IMG/VR virus record: IMGVR_UViG_3300033978_000289
Span: 1-27,497 of that record
Source: a virus
Length of the DNA stretch: 27,497 nt
Strand: one strand, 5' to 3'
The translations under genes were made by a program, and so were the position numbers. Shown piece after piece: positions 825-26,075 of this stretch. The stretch's first letter is position 1. The number at the start of each line of letters is the position of its first letter. A model generated the notes under the pieces. That model had not been told where the DNA came from, did no database searches, and saw nothing but the letters and a program-made list of their open reading frames with translations.

Positions 825-3131
825 TTAGAACCTGAATTTAATTTTGCCAGCAACAGAGTTGTTGGTGACTCCATTATTTAACCCGTGAGACGCTTCAACA
901 ATTAACAATTCTTTATAATCTACGGCAGCAGTAACTCCATAAGAACTATCAGTTCCATAAGCACCTTCAACACTTACACCAAACAGGTTATTTTTCTTAC
1001 CACCAAAACGAGTTTCAAGTTTGAGACCTGCTTCACCAACGTGTGTTGTATTATCAACTGCTGCTACACTTCTTGCGGACTGAACAGAACCACTTTCATT
1101 GTAAGCATTTCTTTTCACATTTTGAACAGTATAACCAACAAATGGTTTAACTCCCTTCGCAAGATGCCAGTATAAACGATTAGAAACCCACCATTCATTT
1201 CCAGTCGTAGTGCCTTCGTTATAGAAAACTCCACCAACATTTCTTCCATATCTATAATTACTATCTGCAATCGCAGCGTTTGTATTCAAAGTAAGAGTGT
1301 TACCATGAAGAGTATTGAAAATACCATAATGATTTTTCTTCTGATGTGACTTTGAATCAACACCATCAAGAACTATGTTAACTTGATTATACTGGAATCC
1401 AACTGTCCAACCTTTCGTAAGGTCCACTTCAAATCCACCACCGAAGATCTTGGAATCAGCAGTATATCCATCAGCATTATAGGACTGAACGAATCTGTTG
1501 TTCTCAAATACTCTTAATCTTTGCTTACCTGCGGTTGGTTCGTGATTCAGAAGTCCATTGATACCATCATTGATTCCATCAAGAACTTCTAACTGATCTA
1601 CACGACCAAAGTAGTAATCATAAGAATCAGATATCGCAACAGATTCAGATGATGTATAAGTATATGTTGGTGTTCCGTCGATTACGGTTGTTGTACCATC
1701 AGCATAATCAGTTGTGGTGACTGGAGTTGTGGTTGTGGTCGTAACCATTGGAGTGGTTACAGTCGTCACCGTTTGCTTTTTGATTTGCTGTTTTCCACTA
1801 GATTCACTTGCTTCAAAATTATATGCTTTAGTTGTAACTGATGGAAGTGTTTGTGATGCAGCAATTGCAGAAGAAACGGAAGGAGCAATTGTTGAAGTAT
1901 AGTTCAGAACAGTTCCCGTAACTTGTGAACTTGATGTTCCGTTAGATGTGGATGTGGTTACAACTGGCGTTCCATTTGATGTGGTTGTAGAACCATCAGA
2001 ATATGTGGTGGTTGTAACTGGAGTTGTAGTTGTAGTGGTTGTTGTAACTGGAGTTGTGGTTTCTACAGTATCAGTATAGTTCTGAACTGTACCGTATCCG
2101 TCAGTATCAAGATTACTTACATTATAAGTAACTTGAGATGTTGCTACAACATTTGAAATTGATGTGGATGTTGTAACTTGGTCAGATGTTGTGGTTCCAG
2201 TTACTGTTGGAGCAGCTGGAGTTGGATTTGGATTTGTTGTAGGAGCATTTGGATTATTTGGAGTAACAGCACCAAATGTTTGTCCATTTTTGAGAGTAGT
2301 TCCTGGTTGACTATCAACTAAAAGAACTGGCGATAGTGCAGTATCACCAAGATTAAATACTGCAAAACCTAATAGGTAAGTACCAGTTACATCAACCTGA
2401 TAGGTTGAATTTTGCCATCCAGTAGAACCATAAGTTCCCGTAGAATAATCTCCTGTTCCTGGATTAGTGAATCCCAAAAGTGCATAGTTACCAGTATAGT
2501 TATTAACTATTACATTTGGTGTAGAACCAGATCCCTGATAGACAAGAGATGTGATGGAACCATCATTGAAAGGAACATAGTCAGTTCCAATATAGTTCCA
2601 AGACATTGTATAAGTAGTTCCAGCATCAAGATTTACACTTTGAGTTAACCATGCAGCATTAGTTGGATTAGGATTTCCGAGTCCTGATGCTTGTTGATCT
2701 TGCTGAAGTTTTGTTTTGATTGCTTGATTTTGAGTTTGTGTAAGTCCTAATGCTGATGTTGCAGCATCAAATGTTACATTACCTGTTGGTTGTAATGCAG
2801 CACCATAAGAACCATATGGAGCAAATGTCCAAGTTGTTGGAGTTACTGCGGGTGCATAATATGGATTTGGTGATCCATCTTGTTTAGTTGGACTTCCTAC
2901 TGCAGGGTGCGATGGAGCACTGAATGTTACTGAACCGTTGATAAGAGTAACACCAGTTCCATTGCCTGTAATGGTTCCGTTGGTTAGAGTTCCTGTTTGA
3001 GATCCAACATTCCAACCAGATAATGAACCTCCCTCAAAATCTGTACCAGAAATTGTATCGGCAAAAGTTGCTGTTGGTGCTCCCATCAAAAGAGCAGACG
3101 CTACAGCAAGCGCCCTGGTAGCGTAAGACAT
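825..3131 (-). CDS. Secreted autotransporter-like protein with Thr-rich stalk and C-terminal beta-barrel
   Basis: This 768-aa protein begins with a classical signal peptide (residues 1-24, cleavage expected after T-F-A). A lectin/CBM-like N-terminal region carries DFEGGSLSGW at about 31-40 and a Y-x-PFNDGS segment, both common in secreted bacterial proteins. Two Thr-rich blocks follow (about 357-400 and 453-490), each repeating the pattern PVTTT-x-Y-x-DG-x-TT. From about residue 505 to the end there are alternating amphipathic strands ending in AGKIKFRF. A terminal Phe is the usual signal for outer-membrane barrel assembly. The order signal, passenger, stalk, barrel matches a type V-like secreted protein. 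It is preceded by an AGAGG ribosome site about six bases before the ATG and lies downstream of the lysozyme. A host-derived adhesin or envelope-remodelling protein is possible, and its role in the phage is unknown. The barrel is seen as a pattern and has not been modelled. Confidence 0.72.
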   Translation of the reverse strand: MSYATRALAVASALLMGAPTATFADTISGTDFEGGSLSGWNVGSQTGTLTNGTITGNGTGVTLINGSVTFSAPSHPAVGSPTKQDGSPNPYYAPAVTPTTWTFAPYGSYGAALQPTGNVTFDAATSALGLTQTQNQAIKTKLQQDQQASGLGNPNPTNAAWLTQSVNLDAGTTYTMSWNYIGTDYVPFNDGSITSLVYQGSGSTPNVIVNNYTGNYALLGFTNPGTGDYSTGTYGSTGWQNSTYQVDVTGTYLLGFAVFNLGDTALSPVLLVDSQPGTTLKNGQTFGAVTPNNPNAPTTNPNPTPAAPTVTGTTTSDQVTTSTSISNVVATSQVTYNVSNLDTDGYGTVQNYTDTVETTTPVTTTTTTTTPVTTTTYSDGSTTTSNGTPVVTTSTSNGTSSSQVTGTVLNYTSTIAPSVSSAIAASQTLPSVTTKAYNFEASESSGKQQIKKQTVTTVTTPMVTTTTTTPVTTTDYADGTTTVIDGTPTYTYTSSESVAISDSYDYYFGRVDQLEVLDGINDGINGLLNHEPTAGKQRLRVFENNRFVQSYNADGYTADSKIFGGGFEVDLTKGWTVGFQYNQVNIVLDGVDSKSHQKKNHYGIFNTLHGNTLTLNTNAAIADSNYRYGRNVGGVFYNEGTTTGNEWWVSNRLYWHLAKGVKPFVGYTVQNVKRNAYNESGSVQSARSVAAVDNTTHVGEAGLKLETRFGGKKNNLFGVSVEGAYGTDSSYGVTAAVDYKELLIVEASHGLNNGVTNNSVAGKIKFRF
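1680..2070 (-). repeat. Two divergent copies of a Thr-codon-rich repeat
   Basis: The stalk-coding part of the autotransporter-like gene has two similar stretches, around 1690-1760 and 1975-2065, made of ACA/ACT/ACC Thr codons. Both encode runs of Thr, then PVTTT, an aromatic residue, DG and TT. They are 200-300 bases apart and could recombine or expand. Boundaries are approximate. Confidence 0.6.
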
Positions 3132-3268: not shown

Positions 3269-3276
3269 TATTTATC
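3269..3276 (-). promoter_or_regulatory. T4-type late promoter (GATAAATA)
   Basis: The minus strand reads GATAAATA, which fits the NATAAATA late box of T4-like cyanophages. It overlaps the lysozyme stop codon and faces the autotransporter-like gene, whose ATG is about 138 bases away. This is the longest leader of any late promoter here. An imperfect inverted repeat (GATTC..GATC/GATC..GAATC, 3229-3253) lies in the leader and lacks a T-tract. Confidence 0.5.
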
Positions 3277-3940
3277 CTTTCTTCCAAGCTTCGCCTTCTG
3301 CCTTTCTTCTACGAGCAAGACCTGCTTCTACATTAGAACCAGGATTGCGATAGAGGAATAAAGCATCAGGAACTAAGTCCCATTCTTTATTCTTCAGGCG
3401 TTTAGTAATAGTATTAAAGTTAGCGCCGCCGTAAAAACCGGCACCAAGATTATAAGCAAAGCTGAGCAAAGCTCCTCTTTTTCCATCTGACATTTCACTC
3501 CAATATGGGATTTTGCGTAATGCGGGAAGAAACTCCTTCTTACACTGTTCAATCAGAAGTGCATCTGCTTCTGCCTGTGTAAGGGTATCATCAAGTTTGA
3601 ATGCTGAACCATCCTTCTTACGAGTCGAACCCCAACCGATTGTGATTGGAAGTCCACCGGTCAGAGGGTCAGGATATGCCTTTAGATGGCATCCTTCAAA
3701 CTCCTTGATTAACTTGATGCCCATTTGTGGGACATCATCACCACCAGTTACAGGAGCTGCAGCAGCGGCAGGGGCTGGTGCAGCACTAGTCTTTTTTCCT
3801 CTAAAGATCTCCGCCCAATCAACATTATCTTCCAGATACTTAACAGGAAGATTGTCTTCTAACCATTGAACTGCCTTAACATGATTTGGATTTCTTTCAT
3901 CATAGAATTGAAAGAAATTGTGTAGATCAACTCTTGCCAT
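3272..3940 (-). CDS. GH24 (T4-type) lysozyme/endolysin with N-terminal module
   Basis: This is a peptidoglycan muramidase expected to cleave the host cell wall at lysis. Residues 1-47 form a module (DLHNFF-x-FYDE...AVQWLEDNLP...DW...FR) shared with the C39-like gene upstream. An Ala/Pro linker (about 52-64) follows, then a GH24 domain. The T4 lysozyme triad Glu-Asp-Thr aligns with E82 (KEFEG), D91 (AYPD) and T100 (ITIGWG), and a helical core follows (SFAYNLGAGFY). I chose the ATG at 3940 because GGAGG lies five bases upstream and the protein then aligns with its neighbour. A start at 3952 would add MEDQ. The start overlaps the stop of the 45-aa gene by 14 bases. It could instead be a virion-associated lysozyme, since the N-terminal module looks like a docking piece. 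Confidence 0.88.
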   Translation of the reverse strand: MARVDLHNFFQFYDERNPNHVKAVQWLEDNLPVKYLEDNVDWAEIFRGKKTSAAPAPAAAAAPVTGGDDVPQMGIKLIKEFEGCHLKAYPDPLTGGLPITIGWGSTRKKDGSAFKLDDTLTQAEADALLIEQCKKEFLPALRKIPYWSEMSDGKRGALLSFAYNLGAGFYGGANFNTITKRLKNKEWDLVPDALFLYRNPGSNVEAGLARRRKAEGEAWKKG

Positions 3941-4064
3941 TTGGTCCTCCAAAATACTTTTGAAAAAGGTCGTTTGCTTCTTTATGTTTACCGTTATTTG
4001 TAAGATCCTTAATAACCTTAAGCATCTTTCTCTTAAAATTAGTCGAAGATTCTTCCCCAGCCAT
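3927..4064 (-). CDS. 45-aa basic protein embedded between the two lysis-enzyme genes
   Basis: This small ORF starts inside the 3' end of the C39-like gene and stops inside the start of the lysozyme gene. Two adjacent ATGs exist at 4067 and 4064. AGGAGG sits five bases before the second, which I chose (MAGEESSTNFKRK...). The protein is hydrophilic and basic, probably helical (MLKVIKDLTNNGKHKEANDLFQKYF), with no membrane segment, so it is not a holin. The strong ribosome site and the overlap at both ends suggest translational coupling and a real gene. I do not recognise the family. A regulatory or antiholin-like role is only a guess from its position. Confidence 0.65.
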   Translation of the reverse strand: MAGEESSTNFKRKMLKVIKDLTNNGKHKEANDLFQKYFGGPNGKS

Positions 4065-4710
4065 CATTCCCTCCTGGGCACCAACGGTGCTTGAGAACTG
4101 CTTTGGTGTAAATAGTCTTCTTACCATTTGTCACAGGACCAGTATAGTTATCGTTGAGGGAACCATAAGGATCATTAACAAAATATCCTTTACCATCTGG
4201 TGTCTTACCGATGACTACACACATGTGCCCACCAGTAGGTGCAGAAAGAGAACCCCTGTGCAGGATACCAATAACAACAGGTTTCCCAGCATCAAGACTT
4301 TTATCAACGTCAGCAAAAGAAAGATTGTAACTAAAGTGTGACTTAACTCCATAACCTGCAAGTACCTTTGTTTGTACCGCATGATCTGTAGTATCGCCAA
4401 TCGCAAATACTTTCTTAACATACTCGTCATCACCTTTAATCGATCCTGGCTTGAGGAAAGCAAGGCACATTGCACATGATGAACTATTACAAGTTCTATG
4501 TGCATCTCTGTAGTTGTCTACTTGATTGAAATATGGAACTGCGAGTACTTCTGGAGTTGGTGGTTTTGTTCTGAACATTCCAATCCAGTCAGTCTCTGCA
4601 TCATCTAAGAAGTTAGCAGGTAGATTATCCTCTAACCATTGAACTGCTGCTACATGATTTGAATTCTTTTCGTCGTAAAATTTGAAAAAGTTGTGAAGGT
4701 CAAGTGTCAT
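4039..4710 (-). CDS. C39-like papain-fold cysteine peptidase/amidase with N-terminal module
   Basis: This 223-aa protein has the same N-terminal module as the GH24 lysozyme (residues 1-48, DLHNFF-x-FYDE...AVQWLEDNLP...DW...FR). A domain of the Peptidase_C39_2 type follows. The probable nucleophile is C74 in RTCNSSSCAM, the histidine is H162 in GGHMCVVIG and the aspartate is D180 in VNDPYG. The C-terminal RWCPGGNDGWGR resembles the closing motif of these wall-associated enzymes. Members of the family cut peptides or amide bonds, and peptidoglycan cross-links would fit the neighbouring lysozyme. An AGGAGAGGA ribosome site precedes the ATG at 4710, which overlaps the stop of the 62-aa gene. The substrate is inferred, not shown. 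Confidence 0.8.
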   Translation of the reverse strand: MTLDLHNFFKFYDEKNSNHVAAVQWLEDNLPANFLDDAETDWIGMFRTKPPTPEVLAVPYFNQVDNYRDAHRTCNSSSCAMCLAFLKPGSIKGDDEYVKKVFAIGDTTDHAVQTKVLAGYGVKSHFSYNLSFADVDKSLDAGKPVVIGILHRGSLSAPTGGHMCVVIGKTPDGKGYFVNDPYGSLNDNYTGPVTNGKKTIYTKAVLKHRWCPGGNDGWGRIFD

Positions 4711-4888
4711 CTTCCTCTCCTATGAACTCTAATGAGAAAATATCATGATCTAAAATATTCGGATTCAACCATTCACTAAATTCAGATTGAATCGCATGGG
4801 CATTCTCAATATTTTCTTCACAGAGAGTATGAATGCGGTCAACTGCCCAATCATGAGTTGTCTGAAGAGTCTCTTCCAAAGTTTCCAT
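4700..4888 (-). CDS. 62-aa acidic protein of unknown function
   Basis: This acidic ORF (TLEETLQTTHDWAVDRIHTLCEENIENAHAIQSEF in two shorter helical pieces, ending GEEDDT) overlaps the end of the GIY-YIG gene by 38 bases and the start of the C39-like gene by 11 bases. No domain or membrane segment is visible. Its place in a tightly overlapping five-gene run supports expression, although the ribosome site (GAAAAG) is weak. I do not recognise it. Confidence 0.55.
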   Translation of the reverse strand: METLEETLQTTHDWAVDRIHTLCEENIENAHAIQSEFSEWLNPNILDHDIFSLEFIGEEDDT

Positions 4889-5300
4889 AATCTTTTCGCA
4901 TGTAGCGTCCTAGAATATTACTATTGTAATACGCTGGACTCCCATCGTCAAGAGACTCAATCAACACATTATTTAGGAAAAGCTGTTTTGTTTCTTCATA
5001 ATTACACTGCCCCTTTGTCTTATGAAGACTCAAAATTACTCTATCAAATGACTCTTTCCCCCAAAGGTTAACGTCTTCTTTGAGTTCAGGACAGGAGCCG
5101 TAATATGTTTTCCAATCGGACTCTGACTTAACTTTTCTAGATTTTCCTCTTGGTGTGCGGAAAGACCAGAAATACTTTCTACCAATATAACTACGACCAG
5201 TTTTATTGCAGTGAATATGATAAACAAAACCAAAATTATCTTGAATATCAGAAGACTCAAAAATTTCCCCATTGAATCTCCAGGGATTTTCATAACTCAT
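4851..5300 (-). CDS. SegE-like GIY-YIG endonuclease domain protein
   Basis: This 149-aa protein contains a GIY-YIG-like core: FGFVYHI (residues 23-29), then TGRSYIGRKYFWS, followed by basic residues (RTPRGKSRKVKSESDW) and KTYYGS. A distal glutamate region (YEETKQLFLNN) and an NSNILGRY tail follow. It resembles the T4 SegE-type freestanding endonucleases, which nick DNA at specific sites and spread by homing. The gene is led by both a sigma70-type and a late promoter just after a terminator hairpin, as expected for a mobile module inserted upstream of the lysis genes. Whether it is an active homing enzyme or a domesticated nuclease cannot be told here. Confidence 0.75.
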   Translation of the reverse strand: MSYENPWRFNGEIFESSDIQDNFGFVYHIHCNKTGRSYIGRKYFWSFRTPRGKSRKVKSESDWKTYYGSCPELKEDVNLWGKESFDRVILSLHKTKGQCNYEETKQLFLNNVLIESLDDGSPAYYNSNILGRYMRKDYGNFGRDSSDNS

Positions 5301-13800: not shown

Positions 13801-14358
13801 TCAGCTTTCTGGATATCTGGTGTCGTCTTCAGCGTCACCTGCAATCATGCTTCCTGCAACTAAGGTTTCAGACTTAACTCTGAAATTACCGTGACAATCA
13901 ACATAGGTTGTTACTCCAACCCATCCCGCGTGTGCGACGGCATAAGCGGCATTCTTTCCACCAACCGTTCTACCAGCAGCAACGTTTGTTTCAGTTGTAC
14001 CAACACCAAATACAGCAGAGAATCTATTAGACTTTACTTCAGGAGCAAAGTATTGACCATCCTCAAGAGTATATTTTGGTTTTTGAGTTACAGTGTATCC
14101 AGCGCCAGAAATCGTGTTGAGTGTTGGATGTGGAATCAAGAACTGTGTAGATCCGATTGAAAGTTGAGTAGCAGAAGTAATTCCAGTGATCACTGCTTGA
14201 CCATAGGTTCCTCCAGCGCCAACGACTAAAATATCGCCAGTTGAAATGCCTGCAGTTACAAAGGTTGTGCCACTTCCAAGTACAACTTCAGTACCAAGAT
14301 TAATTGTAATAGTTCCAGTTAGATTGCTAAAAGAATCTCTATTGCCCCAAAGAGCCAT
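13801..14358 (-). CDS. Virion structural protein (MALWGNRD family)
   Basis: This 185-aa beta-rich protein with Thr/Gly/Val repeats begins MALWGNRDSFSNLTGTITIN. It continues with EVVLGSGTTFVTAGISTGDIL, a YFAPEVKSNRFSAVFGVG segment, and the conserved TVGGKNAAYAVAHAGWV and VKSETLVAGSMI. I recall this family as a common cyanomyovirus virion structural protein. A perfect late promoter 33 bases upstream, directly after a terminator, supports late expression. It is the first gene of a run that continues to nrdB with no visible terminator. Its exact place in the particle (neck, tail or head decoration) is not known to me. Confidence 0.82.
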   Translation of the reverse strand: MALWGNRDSFSNLTGTITINLGTEVVLGSGTTFVTAGISTGDILVVGAGGTYGQAVITGITSATQLSIGSTQFLIPHPTLNTISGAGYTVTQKPKYTLEDGQYFAPEVKSNRFSAVFGVGTTETNVAAGRTVGGKNAAYAVAHAGWVGVTTYVDCHGNFRVKSETLVAGSMIAGDAEDDTRYPES

Positions 14359-14668: not shown

Positions 14669-16150
14669 TCAATCGTATCTTGAATGCATCATGTCCTGTG
14701 CTCTTTGAGCATCAGCACGACGCTTTGCTACTTTTTGAGCAGGAGATCTTGGTCCACCATATTCACCAGCTGCAGGTGGTTTTTTGCCAGGAACTTTTTT
14801 ACGTTGTCCAGCAGGCTTTCCTTCCATTCCACGAATTGTCTTTTTTACAGAACGATATGCTGGATCTGAACTACCACCACTTTGCTTTCCTTGCTCTCTT
14901 TCAAGACGATTTAATTCATCAATTTGCTCACCTTCTGGTTCATAAGACATTTTAAGACCCATTGCTCTCATCTTATTTTTAACAAGATTAATCTTAGTTG
15001 GGATTTCTCTAGGGTCTTCTACACCACCTTCACTCTTTTTGAGTTTTGGTTTTTCATCCATACCACAATCTGCTTCTTCCTTATGAACTGGAAGACCCTT
15101 ATGCTTTGTTTTAGCAAACTTCTTTGCTTCTTTTTTACTCATTCCAGCGGCTGCTTTTGCAACTTCAGGAGAAGCGGGGGTCTCACCTTTTTTAGCAGCA
15201 TAAACCATTCCCATAAACTTTTGCTGAGCCTGACTTACTGCTTTCTCAGATAAGAAAGGTCCTTCCATTTCATGGTGAGCAACTTGCATATACGAAGATG
15301 CATTTCTTCCAGTACCAGTTCCAGGGACTTCTGGATTGATTTTAACTGTGTTTTTTCCCTTCATTACATCAATTTTTTTATTATTCGCATCTGGATTTGC
15401 CGACTCATCATTTACTTCACCAATAAATTCTTCAGCAACACCTTTCCTTTTCTGAATTGCAGCGCCGCGAACTTTTCTACGATTTAAAAGATACTTATCA
15501 GTCTTATCATGATCACCATCATTATCAATGTCCTTATCTTCCCTACCAACTGGATCTAAACCTTTACCTGCTTTTACTCTTGCGGTTTGCTCACCCTTCT
15601 TTCTCTCACCTTCATAAGGATCACCATATTCCGTCATTTCAACTTCTTTAATATTTGGATTTGCACGAAGAGCACTAATTTTATCACGAGTGGCATATCT
15701 GACATAAGAACGACCGTCTTTACCAGTTACTCTTACCTTATATTTTCTGTGCTCAGCAGTCTCCAGCTTCTCCATATAAGTTAGACGGATTGGTTCTTCT
15801 TCTTTCTGAACCCCTTCTACAAATACTTTATAAAGTGCATTTGCAACACTAGTAGTTGCAAACTCTTCAATATTAAAATCTTCTGCTTGCATTCCGCCCT
15901 TACCAAACAATTTCTGCTTTACTAAAGTCTTTTCTTGCTGACTCATATTGCTATTTTGCATATATTGAGAATATGCTTGACGAAGAGGAAGTTCTTCTCT
16001 TCTGGCACGATACCGAATATCATAAATCGCTTGCTTTACTCTCTTTTCTGGAGACTTTCCACCAGCTTCCTTTTTATCTCCGCCAGCAGGAGCTGCAGCA
16101 GCAGGAGCGTGTTTTCTTGCTGGAAGCTCTTCAGCAATATGTTTTTTCAT
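14669..16150 (-). CDS. Multidomain virion-associated protein with DUF3008 and EF-hand-like loop
   Basis: This 493-aa highly charged protein has several short modules joined by linkers: a basic Ala/Pro-rich N-terminus (MKKHIAEELPARKHAP); a helical region (33-113); a small alpha/beta module (about 122-180, with VRVTGKDGRSYVRYATRDK); and a calcium-loop-like DIDNDGDHD (207-215) followed by KTDKYLLNRR. A DUF3008 domain follows at about 300-357 (SQAQQKFMGMVYAAKKG, SKKEAKKFAKTKHKGLP), then a basic tail. Sites of the form I-x-E occur between modules (IAE 5-7, IEE 94-96, IGE 243-245, IDE 410-412), matching the prohead-protease consensus. It has a late promoter (16183-16190). I infer an internal or head-associated protein, possibly processed into peptides. 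Confidence 0.75.
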   Translation of the reverse strand: MKKHIAEELPARKHAPAAAAPAGGDKKEAGGKSPEKRVKQAIYDIRYRARREELPLRQAYSQYMQNSNMSQQEKTLVKQKLFGKGGMQAEDFNIEEFATTSVANALYKVFVEGVQKEEEPIRLTYMEKLETAEHRKYKVRVTGKDGRSYVRYATRDKISALRANPNIKEVEMTEYGDPYEGERKKGEQTARVKAGKGLDPVGREDKDIDNDGDHDKTDKYLLNRRKVRGAAIQKRKGVAEEFIGEVNDESANPDANNKKIDVMKGKNTVKINPEVPGTGTGRNASSYMQVAHHEMEGPFLSEKAVSQAQQKFMGMVYAAKKGETPASPEVAKAAAGMSKKEAKKFAKTKHKGLPVHKEEADCGMDEKPKLKKSEGGVEDPREIPTKINLVKNKMRAMGLKMSYEPEGEQIDELNRLEREQGKQSGGSSDPAYRSVKKTIRGMEGKPAGQRKKVPGKKPPAAGEYGGPRSPAQKVAKRRADAQRAQDMMHSRYD

Positions 16151-16159
16151 GAGAAAATT

Positions 16160-17473
16160 TTACTTTTTACTTTTTCTATATTTATTTATGAATTGCTTAA
16201 CATCATATCCCATATATGCCTTTCCACCATATTGCAAATTCTCTTTTCCCGTTCCAATTGCTCCTGGTGTCATATCAGAAAAATGTTTAAATGCACCTAA
16301 AGTTCCTACAAGAGTATTAGGATGAATTTTATCTCTCATTTTACTATCCATTCTAACTTCAGTATATTCAACCAAATCTTTAATCCACGATTTGAACATT
16401 TGACCAGACTCGGTAACGCAAATTAGATAATTCGTCCCTCTACGAATAATACGTCCAACTAATCCAGTGTTTAAATTTTCAACTTTTTCACCTAGTTTAA
16501 AAATAGATTCCGTAAGGTAGTTTTCACGAAGAGTTTGAAAATCAAACTTAGGTGCAATCTGCCAGATATCCCATCCTTCTTTAACACTCATAGCACCACG
16601 AAGAATGTTGAAAAGTTCTTTTGCTTCTGCTGGTTTGACTTCAGGAGGAAGACCAGAACGGAAAGTTTTAAAGTCTCCTTCAGCAGCAGCAAGTCTCATT
16701 CTTGATGCGGACATTCCTTCCACACCTTTTGCATCAGGATCTCTATCACCAGCAGAAACTACTTCAATATTATCAAAATTATAAAGTTGACCATTATACT
16801 GACCAGAAAGTTTTTCAAATTCCTTAACTCTATCAGCACCACCGATAATTCTCACACCAGCATATCCATTATTATGTGCCATTTTTAATACATCAAAAAT
16901 GGTTTTAGTATTAGCGTCGTTTACAATATTACCGGCGTGATTTGGATAAAACTTCTGCATATAAGCAATCTTTGTATCAGGATCAAGAGGATTCTTTTTC
17001 TTATCCTGACTTCTTGAGGGAAAGATTAAATATTGCCCATCTTTGTCCTGAGACGCTGCCTGTGCCGCAACATCCATTAATTGCTGATGTCCAATTGTTG
17101 GTGGATTAAATCTACCAAAAGCAATAGTAAGAGTACCTTTGGTTTTAGGAACTGGAAGATATTGTGCAGGAGGTTGTTCTTGTGCTACTGCCTGTTGCTC
17201 TGGTGCAGGTGCCTGCTGCTGTGCTGCCTGCTGTTGAAGTGCTGGATCATTATAACCAGGCGAGGCAATTGTTTTTTCCTTTTCAGTTTGTGGTCCGTCT
17301 TTCTGACCTACTCTTTGACGCTTATTATAAAATTTTAACTTACCACCTTCAGTTTTTGCTACAAACTCTCCCTGCTTATCATACCAACCACCATGACCAT
17401 CTCCAACAAGTCCAAGACGCTGTGCTTGTTGAGATGCGGTTGCTTCTGTTATGAATTGGAAAAAACTTTTCAT
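16160..17473 (-). CDS. Nucleotidyltransferase (cytidylyltransferase/NMNAT-like), putative packaged virion protein
   Basis: This 437-aa protein carries a complete Rossmann nucleotidyltransferase domain (about 113-275). The ATP-binding motif GRFNPPTIGH spans 120-129, and the C-terminal GMSASRMR at 253-260 corresponds to the ISSTxxR-like motif. Enzymes of this fold transfer AMP or CMP to a phosphate group; the substrate here is unknown. Upstream are a small GGWYDKQGEFVAK module and a Gln/Ala/Pro-rich linker (75-105). Downstream is an SH3/KOW-like piece (about 335-372, GLVGRIIRRGTNYLICVTES). The first ten residues, MKSFFQFITE, match T4's capsid-targeting sequence, with the FITE/A cleavage site in the same place. 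This predicts packaging in the head and injection with DNA. A late box (17512-17519) lies upstream. Confidence 0.83.
   Translation of the reverse strand: MKSFFQFITEATASQQAQRLGLVGDGHGGWYDKQGEFVAKTEGGKLKFYNKRQRVGQKDGPQTEKEKTIASPGYNDPALQQQAAQQQAPAPEQQAVAQEQPPAQYLPVPKTKGTLTIAFGRFNPPTIGHQQLMDVAAQAASQDKDGQYLIFPSRSQDKKKNPLDPDTKIAYMQKFYPNHAGNIVNDANTKTIFDVLKMAHNNGYAGVRIIGGADRVKEFEKLSGQYNGQLYNFDNIEVVSAGDRDPDAKGVEGMSASRMRLAAAEGDFKTFRSGLPPEVKPAEAKELFNILRGAMSVKEGWDIWQIAPKFDFQTLRENYLTESIFKLGEKVENLNTGLVGRIIRRGTNYLICVTESGQMFKSWIKDLVEYTEVRMDSKMRDKIHPNTLVGTLGAFKHFSDMTPGAIGTGKENLQYGGKAYMGYDVKQFINKYRKSKK
16183..16190 (-). promoter_or_regulatory. Late promoter CATAAATA
   Basis: The minus strand reads CATAAATA 33 bases before the ATG of the 493-aa gene at 16150, within the 3' end of the nucleotidyltransferase gene. 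It fits NATAAATA and the usual spacing. Confidence 0.6.
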
Positions 17474-17511: not shown

Positions 17512-17519
17512 TATTTATT
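17512..17519 (-). promoter_or_regulatory. Possible late promoter AATAAATA
   Basis: The minus strand reads AATAAATA 39 bases before the nucleotidyltransferase ATG at 17473, in the short gap after the 307-aa gene. The first base is less typical and the area is A/T-rich. Confidence 0.5.
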
Positions 17520-18443
17520 TCATACAAATCTTGAAATGGTTCTTCCACCAATTGGTTGTATGATGACTCTGGCACCTTTTATCCCATGATCACTGCGATC
17601 TCCTTTATATACACCTAGAAATACTGGTTCATAATTACCACTTATTCTATCACCATTGTTTAATTTATGTCCAGAGCAAGTTAATTCATAATATCTTCCC
17701 CTACTTTGAATATTTAATATTCCTTGCATAGTAACATCCACATTATTCTCATTTTTCATACCACCATAACCACTTCCATAAACCGCCATTTTTTTCAGAT
17801 TTTCATCTTGAATTTTTCTACCAACCGTTGTAGCTGCGGGCATACCATTTACAAACATTTCTTTTAAAGTGTTTATGAATGCTTGGGTTTCTGGATGATT
17901 ATAAATCAAAGGTTCTACCCTTTGAGACGTTCCAGACCATTGTTGAAATGCCTTTGGTCCATCACCAGCTTTATGAGAAACGTGTCCAACGTATCCAGAA
18001 ACTCCCCTAAAGTGAAAATCACATTTGGGTGTTCCAGGAGTGCTTTCACATAGACCAACTTGATATATTGTTGTACCAACTTTTAGAGGTATAATTTCAG
18101 TACCTAATTTATCGAAGATTGCATTTAATTGCTGATTGATTCTTACAATCTGAGCATCTTCTTGTGCCGTGGTCGCTTGCGTTCTACCAGAAAATTCAGA
18201 ATCTTTAAAAATTTGAGTTAAACTTATATACTGTCCCGAAATAGTTGGAAGCATTATGGATCTTCCACTTTTAAATCTTTCAAAATGACTAAGAGTAGTC
18301 AATTCTTTTAAAATAGATTTATCTAGTTTTACTTTAGTTCCGTTTGATTCTGATAAAATAAAATCTTTTCCTATTCTTATTCTGTTTAAAAAAATATTAA
18401 AATTATTTCTTTTTGCAAGTTCACTAGGACTTAACGTAGCCAT
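17520..18443 (-). CDS. Protein of unknown function with a PD-(D/E)XK-like segment
   Basis: I do not recognise a named family for this 307-aa protein. Mixed alpha/beta sequence follows a basic N-terminus (LAKRNNFNIFLNRIRIGKDF). The central stretch CDFHF (141-145), then GYVGHVSHKAGDGPKAFQQW (149-168), resembles the D...(S/E)-x-K core of PD-(D/E)XK nucleases, with D142 and K158 as candidate metal and catalytic residues. The second half (VYGSGYGGMKNENNVDVTMQ and VIIQPIGGRTISRFV) is beta-rich. It follows the two tRNA genes. The ATG at 18443 is preceded by an A-rich leader whose last 20 bases are identical to the leader of the 57-aa gene at 26075. The nuclease idea is a motif-level inference. A virion protein is the main alternative. 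Confidence 0.7.
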   Translation of the reverse strand: MATLSPSELAKRNNFNIFLNRIRIGKDFILSESNGTKVKLDKSILKELTTLSHFERFKSGRSIMLPTISGQYISLTQIFKDSEFSGRTQATTAQEDAQIVRINQQLNAIFDKLGTEIIPLKVGTTIYQVGLCESTPGTPKCDFHFRGVSGYVGHVSHKAGDGPKAFQQWSGTSQRVEPLIYNHPETQAFINTLKEMFVNGMPAATTVGRKIQDENLKKMAVYGSGYGGMKNENNVDVTMQGILNIQSRGRYYELTCSGHKLNNGDRISGNYEPVFLGVYKGDRSDHGIKGARVIIQPIGGRTISRFV

Positions 18444-25901: not shown

Positions 25902-26075
25902 TTAGTCTCCGTTACCATTCCCACCACCATCACCAGCACCGCTTCCAGGATTAATTGGAACTGCTCTTCCAGCACCCACATTAGTCACTCTTCCTTTATG
26001 ATAAACTTTATGTGCCTTTGCTGCTGGATATGAAATAGTTTTTATTTCACTAATAAACTGGTGGAAAGATTTCAT
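25902..26075 (-). CDS. 57-aa peptide with capsid-targeting-like N-terminus
   Basis: This small ORF begins MKSFHQFISEIKTISYPAAK and continues AHKVYHKGRVTNVGAGRAVP, INPGSGAGDGGGNGNGD. The first ten residues match the T4 capsid-targeting sequence, with FISE/I at the cleavage place. They also match the start of the nucleotidyltransferase at 17473. The rest is a short basic piece and a Gly/Asn/Asp tail. It would behave like a T4 internal peptide: packaged, cut and injected. It lies 12 bases after hsp20 and before a terminator. The leader CTAAATAAAAATAAAA is A-rich, with no Shine-Dalgarno. Confidence 0.75.
   Translation of the reverse strand: MKSFHQFISEIKTISYPAAKAHKVYHKGRVTNVGAGRAVPINPGSGAGDGGGNGNGD

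Follow-up and report, generated by a model that had tools for sequence, protein, structure and literature searches.

We propose that a nucleotidyltransferase (NTase) encoded by a T4-like cyanophage is packaged into the phage head by a T4-type N-terminal tag, cut there and delivered with the DNA. For this reading as a whole we estimate a probability of about 0.68. The gene product, an enzyme of adenylyl/cytidylyltransferase fold, would be loaded into the head of the phage that encodes it. Its first ten residues (MKSFFQFITE) would serve as a T4-type capsid-targeting sequence (CTS) and bind the prohead core while the head is assembled, and a gp21-homologue prohead protease would then cut after E10, so that the enzyme would start at A11 and be free in the mature head. 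At infection it would exit with the DNA and could act in the cyanobacterial host before any phage gene is expressed. The substrate is the part of this explanation that we hold with the lowest certainty. Virion carriage and host entry of an NMNAT-like enzyme are already in print; the new element is the targeting signal. Our search, which covered mostly literature outside subscription journals, found no publication that links cyanophages to a capsid-targeting sequence with its prohead-protease site or to a wider tagged cargo.

The enzyme and its modules

The window, that is the whole stretch of DNA analysed, is a 27,497-base virus record with the gene content of a T4-like cyanophage. The NTase gene (16160..17473) lies on the minus strand, as do all features of the protein given below, starts with ATG and encodes 437 residues. 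It belongs to the cyanophage core family T4-GC190/phrog_395. The phrog_395 'cytidyltransferase' profile matches it with E = 4e-98, and P-SSM2_194, annotated as T4-GC190, is 57% identical. Relatives are found in 533 phage records, mostly of Synechococcus and Prochlorococcus phages, and the T4-GC190 NTase has been described as a cyanophage core gene (PMC3037559).

The CTS-like residues 1-10 (17444..17473), with a cut predicted after residue 10 from homologue conservation and comparison with gp23 cut sites, precede a short GDGHGGWYDKQGEFVAKT module at residues 22-52 (LVGDGHGGWYDKQGEFVAKT...; 17318..17410) that is common to the S-CREM2 virion Cas9-like protein gp12 and kinase gp14. A Q/P/A-rich linker follows (residues 53-108; 17150..17317), of variable length in the alignment and predicted to be disordered, with pLDDT <50 at residues 52-106. 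The nucleotidyltransferase domain (residues 112-298; 16580..17140) is delimited by Pfam PF01467, which scores above the Pfam cut-off in the profile search, by the AF2 model (mostly pLDDT 70-92) and by fold search. It carries the nucleotide-binding motif GRFNPPTIGH at residues 120-129 (17087..17116), whose G, R, P, P, G and H do not vary among 14 diverse homologues, and the motif SASRMR at residues 255-260 (16694..16711), in which the first S and the last R are likewise invariant. Both the intact GRFNPPTIGH and the MKSFFQFITE/A start reported in the preliminary description are present in the translated reading frame; here and below the slash marks a known or predicted cut. A small C-terminal beta domain (residues 325-370, VENLNTGLVGRIIRRGTNYLICVTE..FKSWIKD; 16364..16501) is defined by the alignment and the AF2 model, and by its occurrence as a separate ORF in MED4-213 and ACG-2014i.

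The full-length AF2 model is weak (mean pLDDT 64), and the NTase domain alone is usable, with 10-residue means mostly of 70-92. In VIA-align this domain, which has the nucleotidyltransferase fold with the GRFxP-x3-GH motif, scores Z 13.7 against CoaD, 12.7 against NadD and 12.4 against the archaeal NMNAT of M. thermautotrophicus. Judged from the model, CoaD and NadD are about 1 Z apart, and we treat NMNAT-like and PPAT-like folds as tied. The best match in a PDB profile search is MJ0541 (E = 0.004), the weaker matches being mostly chance, and the NCBIfam equivalogs TIGR00482 (19.1 bits, cut-off 112) and TIGR01526 (17.3 bits, cut-off 341) are not reached. The reaction that we tentatively favour is the NadM-like conversion of NMN or NaMN with ATP to NAD, on account of the likeness of the GRFxPxxxGH and NP[LF] motifs to those of archaeal NMNAT. 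The enzyme shares its fold and the GRFxP..GH and NP[LF] motifs with the NadM-type NMNATs (MJ0541, M. thermautotrophicus), but identity to them is very low and PPAT scores equally. The 'NAD synthetase' (T4-GC213) near NTase homologues was considered as support for a role in NAD metabolism and was dropped, as its product looks GIY-YIG-like by eye. This holds for the genes so named in S-SRM01 and S-SM1 (L049:33969-34400 and L050:26512-26973), where the annotation is probably wrong; the window copy lies at 4851-5300.

The enzyme is likely to be catalytically active, since the residues of its catalytic motifs are invariant in the 14 diverse homologues. Such invariance would be unnecessary if the role were purely structural. 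The enzyme might instead serve in the structure or assembly of the head or tail, brought to the prohead by the tag for a role in assembly or DNA packing and not delivered as an active enzyme; its status as a cyanophage core gene, its place among virion genes and its large non-catalytic modules would agree with that. We consider such a role unlikely, also in view of the low peptide numbers, as 3 peptides were detected for the NTase gp154 in S-CREM2 virions against 165 for the capsid protein (PMC10665884).

The N-terminal tag and its predicted cleavage site

Compared with T4 ipII and ipIII (MKTYQEFIAEA), the N-terminus of the window enzyme is identical at M1, K2, F7, I8 and E10, as the preliminary description had noted, and differs conservatively at position 3 (S/T) and at the aromatic position 4 (F/Y). 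The cut is predicted at the same residue, after E10, in FITE/A here and in MKTYQEFIAE/A in T4; that description was right on this point as well. The T4 proteins with this start that the tag pattern retrieves are annotated as the internal head proteins IpII and IpIII. The first ten residues of T4 IPIII are enough for head incorporation, and within its propeptide residues 4 and 7 serve mainly targeting, residues 8 and 10 processing (review, PMC9026906).

Conservation of the tag was assessed in relatives taken from viral contigs by the catalytic motif FGRF[NQ]PP alone, so that the tag itself played no part in their choice and circularity was avoided. This set holds the best 80 matches, with a bias to closer relatives, and 79 of them have a complete start. 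The pattern MK....F[ILF].E stands at the start codon in 77 of these 79; the exceptions begin with MKNFFQFVQNIQE (L182) and MKSFFQFLES (L208). The preliminary description would have fallen with homologues unconserved in their first ten residues, and its claim survived this comparison. Positions 1, 2, 7, 8 and 10 lie inside the scanned pattern, positions 4 and 11 outside it. The conservation of F4 in 76 and of A/S11 in 70 of the 77 tagged relatives is therefore independent support. The aromatic residues at the targeting positions are F4 and F7 in the window enzyme, and F7 recurs in 77/77 tagged relatives, being part of the scan pattern. The (L/I)-x-E consensus at positions 8-10 reads I-T-E in the window enzyme, with L, I or F at position 8 and E at position 10 in 77/79 relatives. 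The positions conserved in the family are thus those used in T4 for targeting (4, 7) and for processing (8, 10), which supports the reading as a capsid-targeting sequence.

Codons for K2, F4, F7 and E10 vary synonymously among tagged relatives, so the constraint acts on the protein, and a nucleotide-level constraint at the gene start is ruled out. A chance origin of the tag is ruled out by its conservation in 77/79 relatives together with the contrast between start and internal positions: in the genomes of T4 and five cyanophages, 17 of 3,433 first-Met positions match M[KR]....F[ILFMV].E, compared with 2 of 5,770 other Met positions (Fisher P = 4e-6).

Some family members carry no tag. The NTases of MED4-213 and ACG-2014i are short (187-188 aa) and untagged, and in both the separate ORF for the C-terminal domain starts with MKSLADF or MKDFKKL; the homologue of coliphage 121Q lacks the tag too. 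Tags shorter by one residue occur in S-SZBM1 (MRFRQFIIE/A) and in the methylotroph phage Melnitz (MKKFSEIIE/A). In phage C48C1 (L157, position 2016) the NTase start is probably misannotated, with the CTS-like KNFSQYLLEEE in frame upstream. Though untagged members exist, 'T4-type CTS' is a fair label for the N-terminus of the window enzyme.

As in T4 IPII and IPIII, one header stands on unrelated bodies; unlike in these, the body here is a nucleotidyltransferase conserved across cyanophages. To our knowledge, the T4 internal proteins are small and without a known enzymatic domain. The T4 ADP-ribosyltransferase Alt is likewise a particle-borne enzyme whose N-terminal propeptide is cut by gp21 (PMC9026906 for the propeptide), but its fold is a different one and its own propeptide (MELITE) is different and shorter. 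T4 gene 61.1 (AF158101 19130-18966) encodes a protein of 54 aa with the CTS-like start MKTFKEFIKE/D; as it is annotated as hypothetical only, we count this match against the proposed reading.

The predicted cleavage site FITE/A resembles the LTE/A sites of cyanophage gp23. Compared by eye, the major capsid protein reads ILTE/A in S-SZBM1, LLTE/A in S-CREM2 and SFLTE/A in T4, the last of which we take to be the gp23 cut position. Genes for gp20-gp23, including a gp21-like protease, are absent from the 27 kb window fragment; the relatives S-CREM2 and S-SZBM1 encode gp21. Trimming of the enzyme family after E10 appears probable from these comparisons. For the trimming claimed in the preliminary description, what stands is the conservation of the site in relatives and its match to the cyanophage gp23 cut site. 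The gene at 14669-16150 (minus strand) starts with MKKHIAE/ELPARK and its relatives in S-SRM01 and P-SSM2 with MKKHIAE/D and MSKNIVE/E, with an IxE site close to the N-terminus. Starts of this type recall MELITE/L in T4 Alt and may represent a second, shorter type of propeptide.

Virion carriage of the enzyme family and of other tagged proteins

The evidence for virion carriage comes from published mass spectrometry of homologues in other cyanophages than the window phage. In S-SM1, T4-GC190 was found in purified virions (PMC3037559); it belongs to the same gene family as the window enzyme, because P-SSM2_194 carries the same family number, and its start MKKFSAFLNE/A is the sole ATG-start match to the motif in the S-SM1 genome. 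Three further members of the family, described as T4-GC190 or NMNAT-like virion proteins, were detected in virions: ORF91 of S-SCSM1 (PMC9602691), starting MKSFLQFLKE/A, S-SZBM1_140 (PMC9146016) and gp154 of S-CREM2 (PMC10665884), starting MKNFSSFLTE/A. S-PM2 encodes the NTase, yet it went undetected in the virion (PMC3037559).

The gene context agrees with virion cargo. A late-promoter-like AATAAATA (17512..17519, minus strand) lies 46 nt upstream of the NTase start codon. On the coding strand of the window, 8 of 11 NATAAATA sites precede a gene by 15-50 nt (compared with uniform placement, P = 5e-10; 6/6 within intergenic sequence only, P = 8e-5). We take AATAAATA and NATAAATA sites to resemble the T4-type late promoter, and the late-type promoter predicted for the NTase gene would be as expected for a virion gene. 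Directly downstream lies a phrog_3326 gene containing DUF3008 (14669..16150, minus strand), which has late-promoter-like sites at -40/-36 and regions homologous to the S-SCSM1 virion proteins 92 and 93. The gene at 13801..14358 (minus strand) encodes a homologue of S-SCSM1_95, an annotated virion protein. These neighbours with virion homologues support the reading of the NTase as virion cargo. The neighbour at 17520-18443 showed no relation to S-SCSM1_90 on comparison. Elsewhere in the window, 825-3131 (minus strand) encodes a possible outer-membrane or porin-like protein of 768 aa that appears to have a signal peptide and contains long Thr-rich repeats; a 'porin' is annotated in S-SRM01 at L049:39504-40964.

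If the tag marks virion cargo, other proteins that carry it should also be found in virions. In S-CREM2 we scanned for the pattern at ATG or GTG starts, with Q also allowed at position 2, and obtained five ORFs: gp6 (SAM hydrolase, MKDFDSFLEE), gp13 (MKDLHSFLTE), gp14 (APH-like kinase, VKRFDAFLTE, GTG start), gp136 (MQTFSMFFSE) and gp154, the NTase (MKNFSSFLTE). All five are among the 52 published virion proteins (hypergeometric P = 6e-4, about 219 genes). For the three phages tested by mass spectrometry together, 6 of 9 proteins picked out by the motif are virion proteins (P = 0.003). The small tagged proteins SSCSM1_30 and SSZBM1_191 do not appear among virion proteins in the annotation or in the part of the MS table consulted, and one S-SZBM1 tag match is probably chance.

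Authors of the S-SCSM1 (PMC9602691) and S-CREM2 (PMC10665884) studies propose a possible entry of such enzymes into the host, and also raise co-purification or carry-over of abundant cytoplasmic protein. On the latter account the NTase would be an intracellular auxiliary enzyme of NAD or nucleotide metabolism, its detection in virions carry-over and its likeness to the tag of other cause, as the untagged homologues of MED4-213, ACG-2014i and coliphage 121Q might suggest. Against this, homologues are detected in at least four phages, all S-CREM2 ORFs with the start motif fall in the virion set, the conserved positions are those that matter in T4, and the promoter is of late type. We therefore regard an intracellular enzyme as improbable, and slightly more so than a structural component.

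Residues 12-55 of the window NTase also match inside S-CREM2 gp12 and gp14, and searches with these two proteins return NTases of other cyanophages. At the sequence level, a small domain is common to three different virion-associated enzymes, the NTase, the Cas9-like protein and the kinase. This recurrence in virion proteins would also fit a model in which packaging depends mainly on the GDGHGxWxD module or the C-terminal beta domain, the tag being a removable propeptide only. S-CREM2 gp154, gp6 and gp13 as well as S-SZBM1_140 are in virions without an obvious module, and we consider module-driven packaging very improbable.

We regard it as highly probable that a T4-type signal directs packaging of this enzyme family. 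The packing inside the head put forward in the preliminary description is well supported by the conservation of the ten residues, by homologues in virions of at least four cyanophages and by the other S-CREM2 virion proteins with the same start. Its wider interpretation is upheld in part: head packing stands, trimming is backed by site conservation, and delivery is drawn from T4. By this analogy, we judge active delivery into the host somewhat more probable than its opposite.

A possible common header for injected enzymes

CTS-like starts extend beyond the NTase. The S-CREM2 Cas9-like virion protein gp12 has LRFASFMAE/A at residues 17-25, the S-CRM01 kinase homologue starts with MISFDQFLSE/K and its neighbour with MKKLDQFLTE/K. 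S-CREM2 gp12 and gp14 (L108) and S-CRM01 g128-g131 (L306) make up a cassette for kinase, Cas9-like and small proteins, marked by CTS-like N-termini and a common GDGHGxWxD module. The window encodes a second CTS-like protein (25902..26075, minus strand) of 57 aa, which starts with MKSFHQFISE/IKTISYPAAK and ends in a Gly/Asp-rich tail; its family is found in 63 viral contigs, against no match in isolate phages. In L301-L304 the first 16 residues of this protein are kept on a different body. The genes at 3272-3952 and 4039-4710 (both minus strand) encode different bodies, lysozyme-like and peptidase-like by eye, with a common N-terminal stretch of about 30 residues, DLHNFF[QK]FYDE[RK]N.NHV.AVQWLEDNLP, possibly a further header.

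We lean slightly towards the view that Kyanoviridae place the T4 CTS as a general header on the enzymes that they inject. This would cover the core NTase in most members and the SAM hydrolase, APH-like kinase and Cas9-like protein in some lineages, the tag often being followed by the common GDGHGxWxD module. Several proteome papers on cyanophages report metabolic enzymes in virions but were unable to separate cargo from contamination. With its conservation, a T4-type signal for targeting and cleavage at the start of these proteins would supply a mechanism and would allow injection into Prochlorococcus and Synechococcus by these abundant viruses to be predicted from genomes. If the header is indeed general, the injected proteome of cyanophages would be readable from N-termini alone.
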